64,000 bases of DNA, from positions 1-64,000 of the forward strand of contig NZ_LGKP01000030.1 of the NCBI RefSeq assembly GCF_001306135.1, given 5' to 3'. The notes beneath the pieces were generated by a model that saw only the letters and a program-made list of their open reading frames with translations, searched no databases and had not been told where the DNA came from. Origin of the DNA: Herpetosiphon geysericola (GTDB lineage: Bacteria; Chloroflexota; Chloroflexia; Chloroflexales; Herpetosiphonaceae). Each line of letters begins with the position of its first letter. The stretch's first letter is position 1. The position numbers and the translations under genes are program-made. Positions 20,347-63,203 of the stretch are shown one piece after another.

Positions 20347-20763
20347 ATGGCGCGCGAATTAGAGCAGTTTTTAGCACGCGGAGAGGAAAAAGCATTCTGG
20401 CTGTTTACGTACAAAAATGCTGGCGGGGCGATTTTAGGTGGCTTTATGGGTAGCCGGATTGGCCAAATCCTCGGAACCGGCGGGATCGTGATGGCCTTGA
20501 CAATGGTCGGGGTTGGGGTTGGTTTAGGCATCACGTTGAATCGACGCGGCTTAATGTGGGGACGGCGGTTGTGGTTCACCATCCTGTTTTACCTGCGCAG
20601 TGCCATCAAGCCACGCACGATTGATGCAGCCGACTGGTATCGGGTGATTGAAGAACGGGAACATGCGGTGGGATTAAGTCACGCTGGCCAACTGGTCTTG
20701 GCCCCGCGCACGATGGCCAGCGAAGCCGTGGCCCAAGGACGGTCGGAAGGAGAAAGCCCATGA
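20347..20763 (+). CDS. VirB3/PrgI-like small transfer membrane protein
   Basis: ATG 20347 (or the preceding GTG) follows ACGGAGG. The 138-residue protein has two adjacent hydrophobic segments at about 24-60 (GGAILGGFMGSRIGQILG, IVMALTMVGVGVGLGITL) between charged ends. This is the layout of VirB3/PrgI-type subunits that sit next to VirB4 in type IV systems. Its stop overlaps the VirB4-like start by ATGA, the usual coupling of this gene pair. Confidence 0.65.
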   Translation: MARELEQFLARGEEKAFWLFTYKNAGGAILGGFMGSRIGQILGTGGIVMALTMVGVGVGLGITLNRRGLMWGRRLWFTILFYLRSAIKPRTIDAADWYRVIEEREHAVGLSHAGQLVLAPRTMASEAVAQGRSEGESP

Positions 20764-23099
20764 ATCAGCAACCCTTGTGTTTGACGATTGACCCGTTTTC
20801 AGTGCGGCAGTACCGTGAGGAATTGCCACAGCTCGAACAACGCTTTGCCAACTTTTGGGCAGGCATCACCTACGATGCGCGGCTGATCTCGTGTACGCGG
20901 CGTTTTTCCTTTGCCCCAATTCGTCAGCGCCTCCGGCAGCAAACCAGCCCGCTCGATGACCTGCGGGAGTTGCTGCCGCTGCTCTTGGCGGTGCAGGACG
21001 GTGAGCCGCGTGCTGAGGCATTAACCAGCCTGGTACAGAAGCGGCTCGCAATCTATGAGCGGGCGACCGCTGCCTTGCAGGATGCGCCAACCGTGCGGCA
21101 TGCCTTGCGCGCGCTGGCCGACGGCGCGACCGATGCCACGACGCTGGCCGTGGTTGCCGACGGCTGCCGCCGCGCCCTCTGGCCATGGCGCTGGCTGAAA
21201 AACTACCGCCGTGCCTACGAGGTCATGGAGCGCGAAGGCAATCCCCTTGGTATCCACCATTATTTCATCGCCTGGCCATCAGAATACACCGATGCCGAGG
21301 CCGTGCGCAGTGTGCTTAAGGGCACGTTTTTGTTGCCCGATGTCCAGATCGCACCGCTCCCGCCCTTGTTTCACGGAAAATACCGCGAAATGGCAACCTA
21401 TCTCAGTCCACTCGACGAGGGCCGTCCGTATTTGCGCGTCATTCACGCCTTCGATGTGCGCGGCGAGTGGGATTTGGGCAGTATGCAGGAGTTGCTGAGT
21501 GGCGAAGAAGAATTGGCGGTGGCGGTGGATGTCACCACGTTGCCGCGTGCCAAGGCGCAGCGCGCGACGACCGATGCGTTTAACGTGCTCGAAGGCGCAT
21601 TGACCGCGCGGAATGCCGTGAAGGATGCCAGGGCCGAACGGGCATACCGCGATGTCAGTTACGCGATGAATGCGTTGGATGTGCAGCAGTTGCATGAAGT
21701 GGCGTATGCGATCCTGATCCAAGCGCCAAGCGTGCGGGATTTGAATCGGATCACCCAAACCCTGCGTGACCGCATGGGCGCACGGCTCAAGCTGGATGTG
21801 CTGAGCGGAACCCAAGGCGAGTATTTGAAGCTTTTTACCATGACACCGAGCAAACAGATTGCCGCGCCGCTCATCCGGCGAAATGCGCTCAGCGAGCATG
21901 TCGCGGCCAAAACGCCGTGGGGTATTCGCAAGAGCGACCGTACCAGCGGCATCCTGTGGGGCTATGATCCGCACGATCAACTGCCATTTCACTATGATCT
22001 GTTTGGGGCCACCGGAACGGACAACCCGCACTTGCTGATGCTTGGGAAGGCTGGTTCGGGGAAGACCGTGACCCTTGGGGCCTTGGCCTTAAGACAAGCG
22101 GTAGCTGGCAATCAAGTGATCATGTTCGATCCCGTAGGCAAATGTGAGTGGTTGTGTGAAGCGGTGGGCGGGGGAGCCACCTATTATCACTTGGCCAATG
22201 AGGTGGCGATCAATATTCTTGACCCGCTCTCGACGAGCCTCAACCGTCAGAAAAATCATGTGGAGCGCAAACTCTCGATGATCTTAGGGCGTTCCATTCA
22301 CCACGGCACGGGCGTGCAGCTGCATCCACGGCTCTTAACGAATGCCGAGCGGGGCGCGTTGGAAGCTGCGTTAGCATCAACGCGGATCTATGGCCCCGAT
22401 GGCGCATTCCTCGCCCAAATGGATGATGAAACCGCGCCGCTCTTGAGCGACTTGGTGCTGGCCTTGCGCGAAACCAACCGCCCCGTTGGCCGAGCCTTGG
22501 CTGAGGAAATCACGGATATTGCCTTGCAATCGCAGGCCCACCTCTTTGATCGCCAAACAACCTTGAAGTGGGATTTTGGTAGCGATGTGGTGGCCTACAA
22601 CCTCAATAATGCGGATAAAGCCCTCTTGCCCATGTACCTCGACCATGGATTTACGGCGCTGAATCAGTATGTGCGTAGCCCACAACGGCGCGCCCGCAAC
22701 CAAAAGCTGGTGTGCATTATCGATGAGTTTGGGGTCATGTCGCAGATCGAAAGCCTCAAGGCCGAGGTCGCGTATGACACCAAAGAATGGCGGAATTACG
22801 GTGCAGCCATGTGGTCAGCCGATCAGAACGCATCCACATATATGGGCGGCAGCGGCAATGCCCAAGACTTCAGCAACCAGACCACGAATAACACCGCCGT
22901 GAAGCTGTTTGGCCGCCAAGAGGGGACGGACGCGAATCTTTTAGCCGAGGCGTACCCCGAATTATCACCCAGTGATATTGCGGCGATCCGCACGGCAGGT
23001 GCAGGAGAGTTCGTCGGTATTTTCGGGACGAACGACGTCCACCATTTGCGCATGCAATTGACCGATCAAGAAGTGGCCTATTTCATTCGGAAGGGCTAG
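20760..23099 (+). CDS. virB4: VirB4-like conjugation ATPase
   Basis: The 779-residue protein has a Walker A motif GKAGSGKT near residue 430 and a Walker B segment KLVCIIDEFG near 650, followed by AAMWSADQNASTYM, typical of VirB4/TraC/TraE ATPases. The N-terminal 350 residues match the CagE/TrbE/VirB part that docks on the channel. VirB4 powers pilus assembly and substrate transfer at the inner membrane. It follows pilins and a VirB3-like gene in the classical order. It is by far the best marker that this is a conjugation system. Confidence 0.9.
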   Translation: MNQQPLCLTIDPFSVRQYREELPQLEQRFANFWAGITYDARLISCTRRFSFAPIRQRLRQQTSPLDDLRELLPLLLAVQDGEPRAEALTSLVQKRLAIYERATAALQDAPTVRHALRALADGATDATTLAVVADGCRRALWPWRWLKNYRRAYEVMEREGNPLGIHHYFIAWPSEYTDAEAVRSVLKGTFLLPDVQIAPLPPLFHGKYREMATYLSPLDEGRPYLRVIHAFDVRGEWDLGSMQELLSGEEELAVAVDVTTLPRAKAQRATTDAFNVLEGALTARNAVKDARAERAYRDVSYAMNALDVQQLHEVAYAILIQAPSVRDLNRITQTLRDRMGARLKLDVLSGTQGEYLKLFTMTPSKQIAAPLIRRNALSEHVAAKTPWGIRKSDRTSGILWGYDPHDQLPFHYDLFGATGTDNPHLLMLGKAGSGKTVTLGALALRQAVAGNQVIMFDPVGKCEWLCEAVGGGATYYHLANEVAINILDPLSTSLNRQKNHVERKLSMILGRSIHHGTGVQLHPRLLTNAERGALEAALASTRIYGPDGAFLAQMDDETAPLLSDLVLALRETNRPVGRALAEEITDIALQSQAHLFDRQTTLKWDFGSDVVAYNLNNADKALLPMYLDHGFTALNQYVRSPQRRARNQKLVCIIDEFGVMSQIESLKAEVAYDTKEWRNYGAAMWSADQNASTYMGGSGNAQDFSNQTTNNTAVKLFGRQEGTDANLLAEAYPELSPSDIAAIRTAGAGEFVGIFGTNDVHHLRMQLTDQEVAYFIRKG

Positions 23100-43142: not shown

Positions 43143-43169
43143 GTATTTAGAATGTTGCTGGAGATTGAT

Positions 43170-44813
43170 ATGTCATCGTTGCCGATACGAAATCGTAAGC
43201 ATGTCCTTGAAGAAGAATCACGAAAATTTGTAGGCAATATTATTCCATCCGAATGGATTATTCGTGGCGAATCCCCATCTGATTATGGGATTGATATGCA
43301 AATAGAGCTGGTTCTTAATGAGCGTGTAACCGGAGCGTCGTGGTCTATCCAGCTAAAAGCGACCGATAAACTTGAGCGAAAGAAAGATGTTGTTACCTAT
43401 TCATTTAAGACATCTACTCTTGCATATTTTCTTGCACGACCTGAACGTATTATATACATAATGTATGATGCGGTGGATAAGGTGGCCTATTGGATATGGA
43501 TACAAGAGTATATTCGAAATGACCTTGAGAAGACATGGTTGAAACAAAAGACTGCAACCGTAAAAATCCCGAAGACGAATATCTTCAATAATGATGCTAT
43601 TCCTATTATCCAAAATCGGGTTCTTCATGATAATGAAGCGCATCGATGGCTATCAGCTGTCCAGACGGCAAATCATCCCTACTTTTCATACCAATTCCAA
43701 AGTAAAGACAATGGTTTTGAAATTGGCGTTTCGCCGCGTTATCCTGGGGCTGATCAGGACTCGCCAGTCTCAATTAATGGTACTTTTCGGTTTGATGCAT
43801 CAGAACATGGACGAGCCAATCTACAAAAGTTTAAAGATATGATACGAACAGGTATACCTGCCGAGTTTGATTCAAGTGTTTTTGAGGGCTTTAACGTACA
43901 TGATATCTTTTATCCGATTATGCCTGAACTTGAAAGTTTCCAAACATCGAAAATTTTAATTAGCTCTATTCCTGGCCAAAATCCCCAAACGATAAAAGTA
44001 TCCTTTTTTGATAAGCATGGGACGCTTGTACAACGCTTCCCTTTTATTGAGCTTGTTGATGTGCAATCGGGGACAGAAGAGGTCACGTTTACCAATAAGG
44101 CACAGAAACTCTCTATTACAACAACGATGACGGTGAGTAAAGTCAGCAATACTATTAACATCTCATTTGGGTTTGATCATGGTCCAGGCACGCCTATCCA
44201 AACCATATACGAGACCATTACTGCAATGATGGATATGAATGATGCGAATTCGATAGAAATAATAAATTTACAAACAGACACGGTGTTGATTAGGGATGAT
44301 TTTAAAGATTATGTGACCGAGATACCATCTCAGTTTGTCCAATTAATCGAAGCATTAATGATTATTCAAGAACGATGTAATATTGAGTTGATATGGCCTG
44401 ATTCGCTCGAACCTGAAGATGCTGAACGGATATTATTTGTCGCAACGATTTTATTTTTAGGCAAGGTTCGTGTACACAATCCAATTACTGTTCCGCTTCT
44501 CTATGAAGGGGCTGAAAAGCTTCTACGGGTTTATCAAGCCAAAAATAGCCTCCATTTGAGAGGAACATCTGCCGCTAAAGCAATTGATATTCTTGGATTC
44601 TCCATTGAGCTAGGTGACTATGTGCTCTATGCCCCAGAGGTCACTATGAGCGTGGATGACCTCCAATCTATTGATACATTTATCAAACGTGGAAAACTAC
44701 AGGATGTGCTTCTTGTTACCTTTCATACTGGCGAGGTTGGGGCCGAATTGATATTCCCGCAGTGGATACCGGTGATGGAGGACGAAGAAAGTGGAGATAA
44801 TGATAAAGACTGA
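43170..44813 (+). CDS. DUF4365 nuclease-like protein, candidate defence effector
   Basis: ATG 43170 is 6 bases after GGAG; ATG 43152 lacks such a site. The first 140 residues match the DUF4365 domain: FVGNIIPSEWIIRGESPSDY, GIDMQIEL and WSIQLKAT give the D...(E)-x-Q-L-K pattern of a PD-(D/E)xK-type nuclease. The next 400 residues are beta-rich and unassigned, with an ending DLQSIDTFIKRGK. DUF4365 proteins occur in defence islands as putative nucleases. As third gene of the cluster beside type I RM, it is the likely effector. Confidence 0.65.
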   Translation: MSSLPIRNRKHVLEEESRKFVGNIIPSEWIIRGESPSDYGIDMQIELVLNERVTGASWSIQLKATDKLERKKDVVTYSFKTSTLAYFLARPERIIYIMYDAVDKVAYWIWIQEYIRNDLEKTWLKQKTATVKIPKTNIFNNDAIPIIQNRVLHDNEAHRWLSAVQTANHPYFSYQFQSKDNGFEIGVSPRYPGADQDSPVSINGTFRFDASEHGRANLQKFKDMIRTGIPAEFDSSVFEGFNVHDIFYPIMPELESFQTSKILISSIPGQNPQTIKVSFFDKHGTLVQRFPFIELVDVQSGTEEVTFTNKAQKLSITTTMTVSKVSNTINISFGFDHGPGTPIQTIYETITAMMDMNDANSIEIINLQTDTVLIRDDFKDYVTEIPSQFVQLIEALMIIQERCNIELIWPDSLEPEDAERILFVATILFLGKVRVHNPITVPLLYEGAEKLLRVYQAKNSLHLRGTSAAKAIDILGFSIELGDYVLYAPEVTMSVDDLQSIDTFIKRGKLQDVLLVTFHTGEVGAELIFPQWIPVMEDEESGDNDKD

Positions 44814-44850
44814 GGGAAATTGACATAAATATATGTTCATTGTTGCTTGG

Positions 44851-44874
44851 TCCACTATCCCTCACGATGATGGA
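44851..44874. repeat. 24-bp dispersed palindrome, copy 1
   Basis: The pattern is TCCAnTATC, six central bases (CCTCAC here), then GATnnTGGA. This copy ends 7 bp before the start codon of the zinc-ribbon gene. Related copies are at 45640, 46701, 57666 and 63180. Confidence 0.65.
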
Positions 44875-44881
44875 GTATAGG

Positions 44882-45628
44882 ATGAGTAAACGCCACGTTA
44901 TTGTTGGCCAACACACCCGATCCATGCCGTTGCGTACATTCACCATCATTTGCCGCTGGTGTGGGAATGAAGCCACCATCGAGAGTTACCCAGGGCGAAC
45001 CCCGACGCTCTGTAGTCCTGAATGTCTTGAAGCTGCACGGAAAGACCACGACCGCCAACGCAAAGCCGCCCAACGCGCCAACAAGCCCGCGCCAGCAACA
45101 CCACGAGGCCGGAAGCCGATGCCCCGCCCGCAGCGGTTTGTCGTGTGGCCATCGCAGCTGAATCGCAGCCTGGACCGATCGATCGATCGCCAGCTGACCG
45201 CGATGAAAACGAAGTTTGATGGAAGAAATCTGATTGCCACGCTGGAAACACTGCTCGTCGAATATCTGGCCGTGAATGTGCGGTGGGTCATATTGGAGTG
45301 TTTTGTGCGGGAGCCACAGAAATTGGCCGAGCGCACGGAGGTCGTGTTAACCACGATTGACGATCCGGAACACAAACATAATCAATGGCAGCGGGAGTTG
45401 GATACCTTGCGCAGCGAATTTGCACGGAATGGAACCCTGAATCAAGCCCAGCGAGAGCAGCTGTGGGCTATCGCACGACCCATCGAATTTGCGGTTGTCG
45501 GGCGGCATGGGTTAAGTCAAGACTACCAGGAACGCTTAACCGGAGCACAACGCGCGACCGCCGAGCGAGCGCTGGCAGCGGCCTTGGTCAGACTGGAAGC
45601 ACTCTTGCTTGATCGCGAATCAGCATGA
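44882..45628 (+). CDS. Zinc-ribbon plasmid-type protein, 248 aa
   Basis: ATG 44882 follows AGTATAGG. Residues about 20-48 hold a four-Cys site (ICRWCGN, then TLCSPECLEAARK) as in short treble-clef zinc ribbons of mobile-element proteins. A basic Pro-rich linker follows, then a helical domain (KFDGRNLIATLETLLVEYLA) and a second helical part ending in LEALLLDRES. DNA binding is likely, function unknown. The last 81 codons are duplicated downstream at 46446-46689. Palindromes of the same family stand on both sides of the gene. Confidence 0.6.
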   Translation: MSKRHVIVGQHTRSMPLRTFTIICRWCGNEATIESYPGRTPTLCSPECLEAARKDHDRQRKAAQRANKPAPATPRGRKPMPRPQRFVVWPSQLNRSLDRSIDRQLTAMKTKFDGRNLIATLETLLVEYLAVNVRWVILECFVREPQKLAERTEVVLTTIDDPEHKHNQWQRELDTLRSEFARNGTLNQAQREQLWAIARPIEFAVVGRHGLSQDYQERLTGAQRATAERALAAALVRLEALLLDRESA

Positions 45629-45639
45629 TTTCTATTTTG

Positions 45640-45663
45640 TCCAATATCTCTCACGATAATGGA
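45640..45663. repeat. 24-bp dispersed palindrome, copy 2
   Basis: TCCAATATC, centre TCTCAC, GATAATGGA. It lies 11 bp after the stop codon of the zinc-ribbon gene and is included in the 279-bp segmental duplication whose other copy is at 46446-46724. Confidence 0.65.
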
Positions 45664-45810
45664 TTTCAATATTTGATACACCTTGGAGTATCACACTATA
45701 TATACTACAGTACTATACGCGATATTATTAGAGTACTATTTCAAGTACTATTCCAATCGGGATTAGAGTACTAATGATTATGTTGACAAAATTGGCAAAT
45801 CGGCTGAAAA

Positions 45811-45845
45811 TAAAGGCACAAGAGTTCGTACCTCTTGTGCCTTTA
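45811..45845 (-). terminator. Perfect 14-bp terminator stem of the 45-aa peptide gene
   Basis: TAAAGGCACAAGAG (45811-45824) pairs without mismatch with 45832-45845 around 7 bases. On the minus strand it follows the peptide stop by 7 bp and continues into ATTTTC. It is a strong intrinsic terminator for a very short transcript. Confidence 0.8.
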
Positions 45846-45852
45846 TGCCAGT

Positions 45853-45990
45853 TTAGTTTAAGTCCGTTGACAAGCGGATAAGCGATGCGACCAGGTTGAT
45901 AACAGAACTGACATTCTTTTTCAACCAATTGGACATATTGCGAAAACGTCGGGCCATCTTTTGATGGCTCTTCTTTTTGCCTTTTTCCAT
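45853..45990 (-). CDS. Short cationic amphipathic peptide, 45 aa
   Basis: The ATG at 45990 has a strong GGGGGTG 8 bases upstream. The peptide begins MEKGKKKSHQKMARRFRNMS and continues with NWLKKNVSSVINLVASLIRL, that is a basic head followed by an amphipathic helix. It has no Cys, so it is not a thiopeptide or lanthipeptide with rings from Cys. A leaderless bacteriocin, a type I toxin-like membrane peptide or a small regulatory protein are possible. A consensus promoter, an attenuator-like leader and a perfect terminator frame the gene, so it is surely expressed as a unit. A GTG frame from 46000 overlaps it but lacks a correctly spaced ribosome site. Confidence 0.55.
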   Translation of the reverse strand: MEKGKKKSHQKMARRFRNMSNWLKKNVSSVINLVASLIRLSTDLN

Positions 45991-46073
45991 AGCTTTTCAC
46001 CCCCTTTCATTGATATTTTTATAGAATCCTCCTTTCGTGATTCAAATACCAATTGTTAGGCGACCTTGGGTAT

Positions 46074-46122
46074 AAAAAAGCCGCACTGGAGATCAATGAC
46101 GATCATAATATTCCAGTACGGC
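46074..46122 (-). terminator. Attenuator-like terminator hairpin in the peptide leader
   Basis: On the minus strand GCCGTACTGGA (46122-46112) pairs with TCCAGTGCGGC (46090-46080), one mismatch, and six T residues follow (46079-46074). It starts only about 8 nt after the expected transcription start and about 80 bp before the peptide gene, so it can stop transcription early or define a short RNA. Confidence 0.65.
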
Positions 46123-46136
46123 GGTCGCTAATTGGC

Positions 46137-46165
46137 ATTATATAGGTCGCTATAACATATGTCAA
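46137..46165 (-). promoter_or_regulatory. Perfect consensus sigma-70 promoter for the 45-aa peptide
   Basis: On the minus strand TTGACA (46165-46160) and TATAAT (46142-46137) are separated by exactly 17 bp. Transcription should start near 46130 and run through the attenuator-like hairpin to the peptide gene. Nothing else on this strand could use it. Confidence 0.8.
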
Positions 46166-46445
46166 TAGGAATAACCTAAGCTACGTGTGCTATGTTTGAA
46201 ATTGTGTTATAGGGTAAACCCATACTTTATAAGTATTCATTGATCAAGCTTTAAAATTCATGTCATTCTAAAGGGATGAATTCAATAGTAGCCACGAATC
46301 GCGGTCTAAATAATCCTCTCACGAAAAAGAATTATTCAAGTATTCGTGATACCGTGCTGTTCATTAAAAATAAAATTCTTATGTTTTTCTAATGTTTGAT
46401 TATGCGTGCGTGCAAACTTAGATGATCCATAGCTATGCTATCGCG

Positions 46446-46689
46446 ATGGCAGCGGGAGTTGGATGGATTGCGCAGCGAGCTTGCAGGGAATGGAAAACTG
46501 AATCAAGCCCAGCACGATCAGCTGTGGGCTATCGCACGACCCATCGAATTTGCGGTTGTCGGTCGGCATGGGCTGAGTCAAGACTACCAAGAACGCTTAA
46601 CCGGAGCACAACGCATCAGTGCCGAGCGCGCGCTGGGAGCGGCCTTGGTTCGGCTGGAAGCACTCGTGGTTGATCGTGAATCAGGGTAA
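46446..46689 (+). pseudogene. Truncated duplicate of the zinc-ribbon gene
   Basis: The frame encodes a copy of the last 81 residues of the protein at 44882-45628 (for example WAIARPIEFAVVGRHGLSQD is identical). The zinc-ribbon and the first helical domain are missing and there is no ribosome-binding site. The duplication is gap-free at a constant offset of 1061 bp and extends through the palindrome behind the gene to 46724. It looks like a remnant. Confidence 0.75.
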
Positions 46690-46700
46690 TAATTATTTTG

Positions 46701-46724
46701 TCCAGTATCCCTTACGATAGTGGA
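46701..46724. repeat. 24-bp dispersed palindrome, copy 3
   Basis: TCCAGTATC, centre CCTTAC, GATAGTGGA. It is the duplicate of copy 2 within the 279-bp duplication. From here to 47009 I see no gene. Confidence 0.65.
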
Positions 46725-47009
46725 TTAGTGAATACAGATTATGATAGCAGCATATTCTTGTATAAGGGTCAATCAGGACACTATGATTGAGAGTTGAGGT
46801 TACTTTCACGCTAAGTTCATAGGTTGATAATATATACCGAGCACGCGTATTGGCAGAGTGTTTTTATCCTAGTGTAATGCCATAAAAATGCAGGAATAGG
46901 AATGATAAATACTTCGTATCCTTGGGTAATGCTGCCATGGTGAAGGATCGGTATGTGGTACCAAGGCAATGGCTTAGTTTGGTTACTTTATTAGATGTGT
47001 CACAATTTG

Positions 47010-47045
47010 GGCCTCAGCGCTATGCATTCTCGTGGCGCTGAGGCC
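47010..47045 (-). terminator. Perfect 11-bp stem-loop downstream of the secreted-protein gene
   Basis: GGCCTCAGCGC (47010-47020) pairs with GCGCTGAGGCC (47035-47045) around 14 bases. On the minus strand it lies 85 bp after the stop of the secreted-protein gene and has only a weak T stretch, so termination is plausible but not certain. The 290 bp further left contain nothing I can name. Confidence 0.5.
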
Positions 47046-47129
47046 ACATATCGAGGTATGGGTCATTCGGGATGAGTTTTAGGGTTGTGTTATAGATTGC
47101 TCTAGCAATATTTAAGTTGTTATTTTTGT

Positions 47130-47585
47130 CTAGGACCAAGAATTCGGGGAGAACCAGGACTTACAGGTATAATCGCCTGTATATTCTATGTGAATCCAGG
47201 TATCATAGCCCATCCAAGGACGTGGTTCCGTAATGCTGCATTGTCGAGTGCCTGAATAGCCTTGAAAGGTAAATTCTACTGTGATAGTCTTATCGGGTTT
47301 CCACCACCAACCCCAAAGCGCATAGGCAGAATAACCATTTGCACTGTAGGAAGATGTCCACATGGTAGGTTGATTTTCTTGATTCCGGCCAGTAATCTTG
47401 ACTTGTTGAACGGAGCATGATCCGCCACATGCATTTCCACCATGAACCGCAACCATTGATTCATTGGATCCCCACAACGTCTGATGGGGCTGCTCGACTG
47501 TTGATTTCGCTTGGGCAGGGATTGGTGAAAGAGCGAACCTGCTAACGAACACGCAGAGCCATAGCAACGTCTGTAATCGTTTCAT
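47130..47585 (-). CDS. Small secreted Cys-containing protein, 151 aa
   Basis: A signal peptide covers about residues 1-26 and ends at PIPAQA. The mature protein has four Cys in two groups (NACGGSCSVQQ, then RQCSIT and YTCKSW), so two disulfides are likely, and is rich in Trp, Tyr and Ser with a beta-sheet pattern. I recognise no family. It lies downstream of a glycine-rich peptide gene and a LuxR-type gene on the same strand. Two identical inverted ATACCGGTAT-centred boxes stand in the 260 bp before its start. Confidence 0.65.
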   Translation of the reverse strand: MKRLQTLLWLCVFVSRFALSPIPAQAKSTVEQPHQTLWGSNESMVAVHGGNACGGSCSVQQVKITGRNQENQPTMWTSSYSANGYSAYALWGWWWKPDKTITVEFTFQGYSGTRQCSITEPRPWMGYDTWIHIEYTGDYTCKSWFSPNSWS

Positions 47586-47685
47586 AGAGAATACCTCATG
47601 GGTCGCACATGAAAAATACGATGCTATGGTGATGTGCGACAGGACTAAAATCTATTAAACCATGCTGTCCAATGTGCTGTATCAT

Positions 47686-47802
47686 CAATACCGGTATGTG
47701 TTTGTTCATAGAACAATGCAGGAATCAAGATGCTCTCATGAGTTGTTCCCACCGGAGCAGTGATATTGCGCTATCCTGTGCTATAAACCCATACCGGTAT
47801 TG
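47686..47802. promoter_or_regulatory. Pair of 13-bp inverted boxes centred on ATACCGGTAT
   Basis: CAATACCGGTATG at 47686-47698 and CATACCGGTATTG at 47790-47802 are exact inverted copies, each with a 10-bp palindromic core, and their starts are 104 bp apart (about ten helical turns). They lie between the glycine-rich peptide gene and the secreted-protein gene. A dimeric regulator with looping, possibly the LuxR-type protein nearby, would fit. Confidence 0.5.
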
Positions 47803-47849
47803 TATCCACAGCGGTGTGTGAAACATCCAATGGGGGAGGTTTATGCTAT

Positions 47850-47948
47850 CTATTTCCTTCCACCCTGGTTGCCTGTGCCACCATTCCCTTTCGAACCACC
47901 TGATGATTTACCACCATATCGGCCTCCGTTCGATGATCCTTTTGCCAT
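47850..47948 (-). CDS. Glycine-rich short peptide, 32 aa
   Basis: An excellent AAAAGGAGG lies 6 bases before the ATG. The product starts MAKGSSNGGRYGGKSSGG and ends in GNGGTGNQGGRK; almost half of the residues are Gly and the charge is basic. No hydrophobic segment or Cys is present. Comparable Gly/Ser-rich short peptides include microcin-like precursors and RNA-binding Gly-rich tails, but no family can be claimed. It lies on the same strand between the LuxR-type gene and the secreted-protein gene. Confidence 0.5.
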   Translation of the reverse strand: MAKGSSNGGRYGGKSSGGSKGNGGTGNQGGRK

Positions 47949-48132
47949 GACAGCCTCCTTTTACGAAAAGAATGAATCGTATTCCATTGCTAAGAATGCG
48001 TGATGGTCTATCGTTCTTTCAGCTGCTTCCTGCTCATCGGATTGACTATCAGCACGTCTTTAGAAGGAACATGATGAGCCTATCCTATTGAGCTACGATT
48101 ACAATCCTGATCTGTGACCTGACCCATCAGTA

Positions 48133-48345
48133 CTAGGCATCCATAGGATCATTGTCGCGTGTCATATAGGCAATTGTTGCCTCAACCCGTCCCGTTACCC
48201 GCAGTTTCTGATAAATGATCGTGACATACCAACGAACCGTTGCAACGGATAAACCCATTGCTGCTGCAATCTGTTTATTTGAGTATCCAGCCGAAAGCCA
48301 TTTCCATAGTTCTTGTTCTCTTGGACTGAGATTGCGGGTGGTCAT
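48133..48345 (-). CDS. LuxR/GerE-type HTH regulator without sensor domain
   Basis: ATG 48345 follows AGGAGGAAGCTT. The 70-residue protein is only the DNA-binding domain: LSPREQELWKWLSAGYSNKQ, then IAAAMGLSVATVRWYVTIIY and QKLRVTGRVEATI, the complete four-helix LuxR/GerE fold. Single-domain proteins of this type act as DNA-binding switches or with a separate partner. It is divergent from the HTH-TM-FGE gene, and the 160-bp space between them contains an inverted repeat. Confidence 0.85.
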   Translation of the reverse strand: MTTRNLSPREQELWKWLSAGYSNKQIAAAMGLSVATVRWYVTIIYQKLRVTGRVEATIAYMTRDNDPMDA

Positions 48346-48413
48346 AAGCTTCCTCCTAATCACCCACATTCCATACAAGCTACCGTAGTACAATAGCCAA
48401 CGACTACTATGTG

Positions 48414-48438
48414 GGTGGTATCGAAATCACATACCACC
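48414..48438. promoter_or_regulatory. 8-bp inverted repeat between the divergent luxR-type and FGE genes
   Basis: GGTGGTAT (48414-48421) and ATACCACC (48431-48438) are separated by 9 bp. It shares the GGTAT/ATACC half-site with the boxes at 47686 and 47790, though in the other orientation. It could be an operator common to both divergent genes. Confidence 0.4.
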
Positions 48439-48505
48439 ACCCTACTCGTTTACCCTGAAAATAGGGTTTTCAAGCTGAAAATTGTGCTATCAAGCAGGAG
48501 AAATC

Positions 48506-49801
48506 ATGCCTATGGCGACCCTGAAGCAATTAATCATCGAGTATCGCAGCCGGATTCCTGACTATAATCAAGATAAACTTGCGCAGGATATGGGATATAC
48601 AGCGGGGGGATTGTCCAATGTTCTGAATGGAGAAAGACCCTCAGCTATTACACGAGATTTTGTCTTGAAGGTTGTCAAAATATTCCACGATCATCATGCG
48701 ATACGCTCGCGTGATGAAATTGATAGTCTTTTGGCAGCGGGTGGCTTTGCCAAACTAGGAACACAGTCATCAACTGTCGAAACGGCATTACATACGACAT
48801 TTCCTGCCTTAACGCCTGAGAGGCAGGTTGTCCAGACACAGTATTCGATCCCGATACGCCGCATAATGACGGTTGGCGCAATAGTGCTTGGGCTTTCAAT
48901 AATACTGTTTCTCTGGTTCGATATGCCGCAACGTTGGTCTCTATCACGCTCCCCTACGGTGCAGGCACAGCCCCCAATAATTCGTGATGGGATGGTCTAT
49001 ATTCCAGAGGGATCTTTTCTTCGTGGGAGTACGGAGGATGACCTGCGGTATATAGAATCCTTATGTATTGATATCAGTAAGGAGTGTAATCGCGCGTTGT
49101 TTAGCGATGAGTTACCCCAGATGGCAATTTGGTTGCATGACTATTGGATTGGACAGCATGAGGTGACAAATGCACAATACCAAATTTTTGTTGAGGCAAC
49201 CCATTATGTGACTGATGCTGAAAAAAGAGGTGAAAGTAAGGTCTGGAGTCGATTAGCCCGGACGTTTGAGATCGTAAAGGGTGCTAATTGGCGATCTCCA
49301 GGCGGCCCTACGACCAGTATTGTTGAAAAATTGGAGCATCCTGTTGTTCACATAGCGTACCATGATGCTGAAGCCTACTGTCAATGGGATGGCAAACGCC
49401 TTCCCACAGAAGCAGAATGGGAACGAGCAGCACGAGGAGTCGATGGATGGATATTCCCGTGGGGTAACGAGTGGGATGCAACGCGATTAAATCATGCCTA
49501 CGAAGGAAATTCATTTGGTACCAAAGCAATCGGGTCGTTTCCCGCCGGGGCAAGCAAGGATGAAGTGCATGATATGCTTGGCAACGTGGCAGAATGGACG
49601 AGTGATTGGTATTCTGGTGAATATTATAAATCTGGAGAAACACGGAATCCGACGGGGCCGAAAGTATCGACCGGACAGCATGTACGTCGTGGTGGAGCAT
49701 GGAATACGCAGTCGGGATTTTTACATGCGACGTGGCGTATTGATTTGAAAGATGATACGAGCGATAGCACGGGTTTTCGATGTGTCGAAGACGGAAATTA
49801 A
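48506..49801 (+). CDS. HTH-transmembrane-FGE/SUMF1 fusion protein
   Basis: ATG 48506 follows AGGAG. Residues 1-85 form an XRE-like HTH (DKLAQDMGYTAGGLSNVLNG). A membrane helix is at about 118-138 (IMTVGAIVLGLSIILFLWF). Residues 155-431 are an FGE-sulfatase (formylglycine-generating/SUMF1, EgtB/PvdO) domain with GMVYIPEGSFLRGS, EVTNAQYQIFVE, RLPTEAEWERAARG and the end STGFRCVED. Most bacterial members of this fold are not sulfatase activators and several are domain-binding or defence-associated. The topology puts the HTH in the cytoplasm and the FGE part outside, suggesting a one-component membrane sensor. Confidence 0.8.
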   Translation: MPMATLKQLIIEYRSRIPDYNQDKLAQDMGYTAGGLSNVLNGERPSAITRDFVLKVVKIFHDHHAIRSRDEIDSLLAAGGFAKLGTQSSTVETALHTTFPALTPERQVVQTQYSIPIRRIMTVGAIVLGLSIILFLWFDMPQRWSLSRSPTVQAQPPIIRDGMVYIPEGSFLRGSTEDDLRYIESLCIDISKECNRALFSDELPQMAIWLHDYWIGQHEVTNAQYQIFVEATHYVTDAEKRGESKVWSRLARTFEIVKGANWRSPGGPTTSIVEKLEHPVVHIAYHDAEAYCQWDGKRLPTEAEWERAARGVDGWIFPWGNEWDATRLNHAYEGNSFGTKAIGSFPAGASKDEVHDMLGNVAEWTSDWYSGEYYKSGETRNPTGPKVSTGQHVRRGGAWNTQSGFLHATWRIDLKDDTSDSTGFRCVEDGN

Positions 49802-49802
49802 A

Positions 49803-50033
49803 TCACGCTTGCGAGGATTGAGAGATCGCTATGGTCAGGATGAAATTACAGGATAGAATTAGTACAAACATACTCACCATTCCATGGTCATGGTTCGAAC
49901 ATCCAGAAGCCGCGCCACGGGCTATCACAGCCACTAGCAGCAGGGCCACGCTACTCATGAAAACCGAGCAGTACTTCCATAAACCACGGTGGCGGGTCTT
50001 CTTCCGCTGCTCTGCACGCCACTTCGCCAGCAT
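49803..50033 (-). CDS. Possible small membrane protein, 76 aa
   Basis: The frame from ATG 50033 has a basic head (MLAKWRAEQRKKTRHRG) and two hydrophobic segments (VFMSSVALLLVAVIARG and VSMFVLILSCNFILTIAI). The ribosome-binding site is weak and it converges on the FGE gene. It may be real, but only the hydropathy supports it. Confidence 0.3.
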   Translation of the reverse strand: MLAKWRAEQRKKTRHRGLWKYCSVFMSSVALLLVAVIARGAASGCSNHDHGMVSMFVLILSCNFILTIAISQSSQA

Positions 50034-50648: not shown

Positions 50649-50677
50649 TTGACAAAGAGTTGAAAATAATATATAAT
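50649..50677 (+). promoter_or_regulatory. Perfect consensus promoter, copy 1
   Basis: TTGACA (50649-50654) and TATAAT (50672-50677) have a 17-bp spacer. It starts the accessory operon with the 64-aa gene at 50745. The block CGTTTTAGGCCATTAGAAAG just upstream is conserved in copy 2 and may be an operator. Confidence 0.8.
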
Positions 50678-51697: not shown

Positions 51698-51726
51698 TTG
51701 ACAAAGAGTTGAAAATGATATATAAT
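51698..51726 (+). promoter_or_regulatory. Perfect consensus promoter, copy 2
   Basis: TTGACA (51698-51703) and TATAAT (51721-51726) have the same 17-bp spacer and nearly the same flanks as copy 1, from about 51570 to the start codon of the ArdC gene (identical AAGGGAGCCAACTATGAAC). The duplication gives the antirestriction gene a second, equal promoter. Confidence 0.8.
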
Positions 51727-57630: not shown

Positions 57631-57664
57631 AACCAGCGCCCATCACGACGCTGGTTTTTCTTTT
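57631..57664 (+). terminator. Intrinsic terminator directly after the CRISPR array
   Basis: AACCAGCG (57631-57638) pairs with CGCTGGTT (57649-57656), followed by TTTCTTTT. A similar but degenerate hairpin with T-tract stands at 63147-63179, in both cases directly before a copy of the 24-bp palindrome. Confidence 0.75.
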
Positions 57665-57665
57665 G

Positions 57666-57689
57666 TCCTGTATCCCTCACGATGCTGGA
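57666..57689. repeat. 24-bp dispersed palindrome, copy 4
   Basis: TCCTGTATC, centre CCTCAC, GATGCTGGA. It forms a unit of about 58 bp with the terminator before it; the same composite unit appears near 63147-63203. Confidence 0.6.
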
Positions 57690-63146: not shown

Positions 63147-63203
63147 TCAGCGCGCATCGCGACGCTAGTTTTTTTATTATCCAGTATCCTTTACGATAGT
63201 GGA
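63147..63203 (+). repeat. Terminator-like hairpin plus 24-bp palindrome, copy 5
   Basis: A degenerate hairpin (CAGCG with CGCTAG) and a T7 stretch are followed at 63180-63203 by TCCAGTATC, centre CTTTAC, GATAGTGGA. The whole 57 bp align with 57633-57689 behind the CRISPR array. It lies between the split membrane-protein gene and the last gene of the window. Confidence 0.65.

Follow-up and report, generated by a model that had tools for sequence, protein, structure and literature searches.

What does a 45-codon reading frame on the minus strand of a Herpetosiphon geysericola contig do, and is it a gene at all? We addressed this question within the window, i.e., the whole 64,000-nucleotide stretch analyzed here, taken from the start of a contig of 76 kb. 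An earlier note on this DNA had described the frame together with a promoter, a leader, a ribosome-binding site, and a terminator; these elements were all found where it had placed them, and the minus strand reads as it described. Herpetosiphon is a predatory, antibiotic-producing genus, and our searches found no plasmid-stability peptide or small-protein toxin described for it. With its clear expression signals, the small gene is a compact, directly testable candidate, and as one orphan gene in one genome it is of moderate to low general interest.

The VirB4-like ATPase encoded at 20760-23099 has counterparts on the 99,204-bp plasmid pHAU02 of Herpetosiphon aurantiacus (88% identity) and on another contig of our comparison set (genome G003; 90% identity); the window also encodes TraD/TraG-like and FtsK-like proteins. 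Because of these matches, the 76-kb contig is most likely a plasmid of the pHAU02 family, to judge from sequence, and no overlap was found between its ends. In H. aurantiacus 114-95, pHAU02 (99,204 bp) accompanies a chromosome of 6,346,587 bp (PMC3368417). The small gene is flanked by an ORF at 44840-45628 and, at 46422-46689, by a truncated duplicate of this ORF. Relatives of the ORF occur in four other genomes of the genus, on small contigs that resemble plasmids. In one of the related genomes (G004), the counterpart of the ORF runs directly into sequence matching the window from 49871 onwards; hence, the window from ~45690 to 49870 is extra DNA relative to that genome. By this comparison, the small gene appears to be lineage-specific cargo in an insertion that related plasmids lack.

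The small gene has a perfect promoter, as the earlier note had claimed: TTGACA-N17-TATAAT at 46165-46137 on the minus strand matches the consensus at 12 of 12 positions. The window holds three perfect promoters with this N17 spacing, the others being at 50649 and 51698, compared to none in shuffled copies, which makes consensus promoters a genuine feature of this replicon. Transcription of the small gene likely starts near 46130-46129. Two direct copies of TAGCGACC (46152-46145 and 46130-46123, minus strand) lie 22 bp apart with the -10 box between them and recur nowhere else in the window; this repeat is a possible operator of the small gene. A second possible operator is an inverted repeat, CTATAACA/TGTTATAG (46205-46212 and 46150-46157), around the -35 region. 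The other two perfect promoters are nearly identical to each other (TTGACAAAGAGTTGAAAATRATATATAAT; 50649-50677 and 51698-51726, plus strand), lie ~1.05 kb apart in a duplicated segment, and precede a 64-aa frame and an ArdC-like gene.

Fold and stem scans placed a hairpin followed by six T residues, i.e., an intrinsic terminator or attenuator, at 46122-46074 on the minus strand. It begins ~8 nt past the likely transcription start, has an 11-bp stem (GCCGTACTGGA, 46122-46112; TCCAGTGCGGC, 46090-46080) with a small inner hairpin inside, and is followed directly by TTTTTT (46079-46074). The fold of the 68-nt leader has an energy of -25.2 kcal/mol (z -4.7), which none of 200 shuffled sequences equaled, and of 6000 random 75-nt pieces drawn from the window, only 11 held a stem of at least 10 bp with a T tail. 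The hairpin with six T close behind the promoter, as previously noted, is thus well supported. A generic terminator scan listed neither this hairpin nor the one at the 3' end, and the leader loop exceeds the limit of that scan. An intrinsic terminator therefore stands between promoter and gene, as in a transcription attenuator; no competing antiterminator hairpin was found in the leader. A 16-codon frame, MIVIDLQCGFFIPKVA, begins in the loop of the leader hairpin and has no convincing Shine-Dalgarno (SD) sequence. Further downstream, a second leader hairpin (46053-46008; z -2.1, matched by 6 of 200 shuffles) carries in its loop the second SD-like sequence noted earlier, AAAGGAGG (46035-46028); the surrounding segment 46060-45990 folds with a z of -2.6. 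The RNA between the two terminators has modest structure (z -1.8; 8 of 200 shuffles).

The ribosome-binding site AAAGGGGGTG (46007-45998) was compared with every start of a frame of 30 codons or more in the window, 3335 in all, and forms the most stable anti-SD duplex (-20.6 kcal/mol) when an E. coli-like 16S tail is assumed; the GGGGGTG site was rightly called strong. It precedes the 45-aa frame MEKGKKKSHQKMARRFRNMSNWLKKNVSSVINLVASLIRLSTDLN (45990-45853, minus strand), which has a coding-like codon score of 7.5 bits, where coding segments score 13.6 ± 7.4 and shifted frames -8.9 ± 6.9, and only 1.1% of shifted segments score as high. This bears out the frame as previously described. An overlapping 29-aa frame at 46010 was rejected as coding (codon score -7.2). 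After the stop codon, a perfect 15-bp inverted repeat at 45846-45810 folds with a z of -7.5 and is followed by TTTTC, or by TTTATTTTC when the A-U end of the repeat is counted as unpaired. The "perfect" 14-bp terminator of the earlier note is therefore right as to a strong stem after the stop, but the stem has 15 bp and its U tail is moderate. Because of the promoter, the hairpins, the strength of the SD, the codon usage, and the 3' inverted repeat, we regard the minus-strand frame as very probably a real protein-coding small gene, whose transcription and termination efficiency we infer from these sequence elements.

Folding of the full mRNA left the SD mostly paired and the AUG paired, and the 5' GCGACC of the predicted full transcript pairs with a GGTCGC inside the frame. 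When the leader was folded alone, a GGTCGCC stretch paired with the SD instead. GGTCGC occurs twice in the transcript, each copy a perfect complement of the 5' GCGACC, which is free in the short RNA. As a lead from models of one sequence, without covariation, GCGACC/GGTCGC pairing would allow a switch among the 5' end, the leader, the SD, and the frame.

The predicted peptide, with 11 positive and 2 negative charges (net +9), has 8 of its 11 K/R within the N-terminal 17 residues. AlphaFold2, run on the single sequence, returned one helix over residues 5-44 (pLDDT 88; pTM 0.43). The largest 18-residue hydrophobic moment falls on residues 10-27; thus, the basic head and amphipathic helix proposed earlier hold as predictions. 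The most hydrophobic stretch, residues 27-44, has an 18-residue mean of only 0.33 on the Eisenberg scale and is therefore too polar for a standard membrane span; by this measure, the peptide has no continuous transmembrane stretch and is amphipathic instead. Heptad a/d positions over residues 12-44 read M F M L N V L L L L, i.e., hydrophobic at 9 of 10 positions with one Asn, a pattern matched by 0.9% of shuffles. Taken together, these predictions are compatible with a basic helix that self-associates or with a helix bound to a membrane surface.

The earlier note had proposed a homologue search in Chloroflexota. We ran it across 301 Chloroflexota genomes, 60 relatives, and the same genome, and found nothing credible for the peptide, although for a 45-residue, possibly fast-evolving peptide such a failed search does not prove absence. 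Nothing credible emerged from IMG/VR, PLSDB plasmids, INPHARED phages, Pfam, NCBIfam, PADLOC, PHROGs, or the PDB, nor from GTDB contigs searched with the patterns MEKGKKK, FRNMSNW, and MSNWLKKN. Two hits to back-translated MSNWLKKN were rejected, as they lie inside large unrelated proteins, and a match to the PHROG 18250 integrase, spanning 25 basic residues at E 0.011, seems to reflect composition. The leader DNA matched only itself and short chance stretches among relatives and plasmids, and in the five genus-mates even the DNA of the small gene was absent. Rfam gave nothing at the gathering threshold; its sub-threshold hits on the 3' hairpin were plastid psbA 3'UTR stem-loops, which we judged to be chance. 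A pattern of promoter plus T6 hit nine other places in the genus, all belonging to two recurring types that are shared between genomes and have no relation to this locus, and a scan of related plasmid loci for small ORFs with SD, promoter, and terminator found no analogue. Since neither peptide nor leader has a detectable relative, conservation cannot decide the function. What can safely be said is that the plasmid carries here an orphan gene for a small protein, behind a leader that resembles an attenuator; we do not file it under type I toxins, bacteriocins, or the other families considered.

On the plus strand, a weak candidate promoter (TTGACA-N17-GAAAAT, 10/12; 45783-45811) faces the small gene, and a candidate terminator with an 8-bp stem and a T-rich tail lies inside the frame (45951-45978). 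Together, they would yield an antisense RNA of ~160 nt over most of the 3' part of the gene. Sites resembling promoters or terminators are no more numerous in the region than chance predicts from shuffled sequence, so this RNA may not exist.

What, then, does the peptide do? With low confidence on mechanism, we tentatively put first an attenuated, plasmid-borne, growth-inhibiting, membrane-active peptide under RNA-level control, similar to a type I toxin, because the expression anatomy and the plasmid location are best explained by a peptide that needs a low level. RNA polymerase would start at the consensus promoter (46165-46137), and most transcripts would stop at the leader hairpin, giving a putative leader RNA of ~55-60 nt. 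Read-through transcripts would carry a structured leader with the main ribosome-binding site and start codon partly paired, and would end at the 15-bp 3' hairpin. Their product, the +9 amphipathic helical peptide, would inhibit growth at the membrane and would be kept low by attenuation, leader folding, and perhaps the antisense RNA. Type I toxins have self-closed mRNAs, which the predicted pairing of the SD, of the AUG, and of the 5' GCGACC with the frame calls to mind. Further support comes from expression signals (promoter, SD, and hairpin) that chance would hardly produce, from codons used as in coding sequence, from the plasmid context, and from a charged, amphipathic product predicted to form one helix. 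At 45 aa and with its own promoter and ribosome-binding site, the frame resembles the small ORFs (usually <60 aa) of such systems. The convergent promoter with an in-frame antisense terminator has the layout of 3'-overlapping toxin/antisense pairs such as yonT/SR6, where toxin and antisense RNA overlap at the toxin 3' end (PMC5848175). The gene shares with this Bacillus type a small ORF, a strong sigma-A-type promoter, a mobile element, a candidate convergent promoter for an RNA over the toxin 3' part, and a partly closed mRNA leader; it differs in a very basic peptide without a clear membrane span, a weakly predicted antisense RNA, an extra early leader terminator, and a lack of sequence similarity.

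Several results weigh against a type-I-toxin-like peptide. Type I toxins typically carry a hydrophobic transmembrane helix (PMC8309996), whereas the best 18 residues here are too polar for one; the candidate antisense sites are not above chance, the structure between the terminators is only modest, no known toxin or antitoxin matched in Pfam, NCBIfam, PADLOC, or Rfam, and there is no relative in which conservation could be tested. Cytosolic type I toxins do exist. Transcription-attenuated plasmid leaders are also familiar from the Inc18 repR attenuators, in which a plasmid gene is likewise separated from its promoter by an intrinsic terminator, but here no replication gene follows, and neither a competing antiterminator hairpin nor an antisense RNA against the leader was seen. 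Behind this first choice, we rank two readings level, each rather doubtful. One is an exported antimicrobial peptide acting on other bacteria: size, charge, helix, and the lack of a leader peptide or signal sequence are as in leaderless bacteriocins and other cationic amphipathic antimicrobial peptides, and very strong expression signals, a plasmid location, and a predatory host would suit it, but no transporter or immunity gene was present among the scanned neighboring ORFs and no bacteriocin family matched in Pfam or NCBIfam. The other is a small basic DNA- or RNA-binding peptide, bZIP-like in its basic N-terminus and self-associating heptads, which might bind the TAGCGACC repeats and so repress its own transcription, or act on plasmid functions. 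The a/d pattern, the clustered K/R, and repeats two helical turns apart around the -10 point this way; any amphipathic membrane helix would show the same heptads, however, and no homologous DNA-binding family emerged beyond the compositional integrase hint.

A locus that works mainly through RNA, either the ~60-nt leader or a longer noncoding transcript, with the frame incidental or secondary, is unlikely. Promoter and leader hairpin alone make a complete small-RNA gene, and the longer transcript holds two perfect complements of the 5' GCGACC, which is free in the short form, but in a noncoding RNA one would not expect an SD stronger than any other in the window, an ATG in a good position, or codons used as in coding sequence. 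More improbable still is a remnant of a mobile element or cargo, recently acquired and without selected function here: the gene does lie in a lineage-specific insertion beside a truncated duplicate gene and has no copy elsewhere, yet decay would erode its expression elements and frame, which are all intact and near consensus. A long shot is that it is the first member of a new Chloroflexota plasmid module for a regulatory or toxic peptide, in which an early-terminated leader RNA and a self-closed peptide mRNA control each other through the repeated GCGACC/GGTCGC. Of the earlier reading, the expressed-looking small gene with a premature-termination site stands; a toxin, bacteriocin, or signal found no support in a homologue, a secretion or immunity partner, or a membrane span.

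Just upstream of the candidate opposing promoter lie four AGTACTA sites (45709, 45732, 45744, and 45767; cluster 45703-45773). Clustered AGTACTA pairs occur in this genome only here and at C23:450259-450296, where the pair is followed closely by a TATAAT box and precedes a 294-aa frame, an arrangement that favors a regulatory role for these sites. The words AGTACTATACGC and GAATAGTACTTGA are common to the window cluster (45703-45773) and that of the chromosomal 294-aa frame (L071 1501-1550), and plasmid and chromosome may possibly share a regulator; the shared longer words face opposite to the direction needed at the small gene.

Further neighbors encode a LuxR-type HTH protein and a protein of 151 aa whose start is signal-like and which matched nothing in Pfam. 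A type I restriction system also lies nearby, and next to it is a gene (43152-44813) for a protein with an N-terminal DUF4365 domain. This protein matches PDC-M02A, a candidate defense family, and its gene is a possible defense gene. The ORF at 44840-45628 belongs to a family of Herpetosiphon plasmid genes with a cysteine-pair N-terminus and no Pfam family above cutoff. Finally, a near-palindrome of ~26 bp, TGTCCANTATCCCTCACGATARTGGA, recurs at 44849-44874, 45638-45663, 46699-46724, 57664-57689, and 63178-63203. Its two arms are separated by a 6-bp spacer, and copies stand before and after plasmid ORFs both in the window and on related Herpetosiphon contigs, in several relatives between the -10 box and the start codon. 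Possible roles are that of an operator or that of a recombination site aiding the exchange of cargo.
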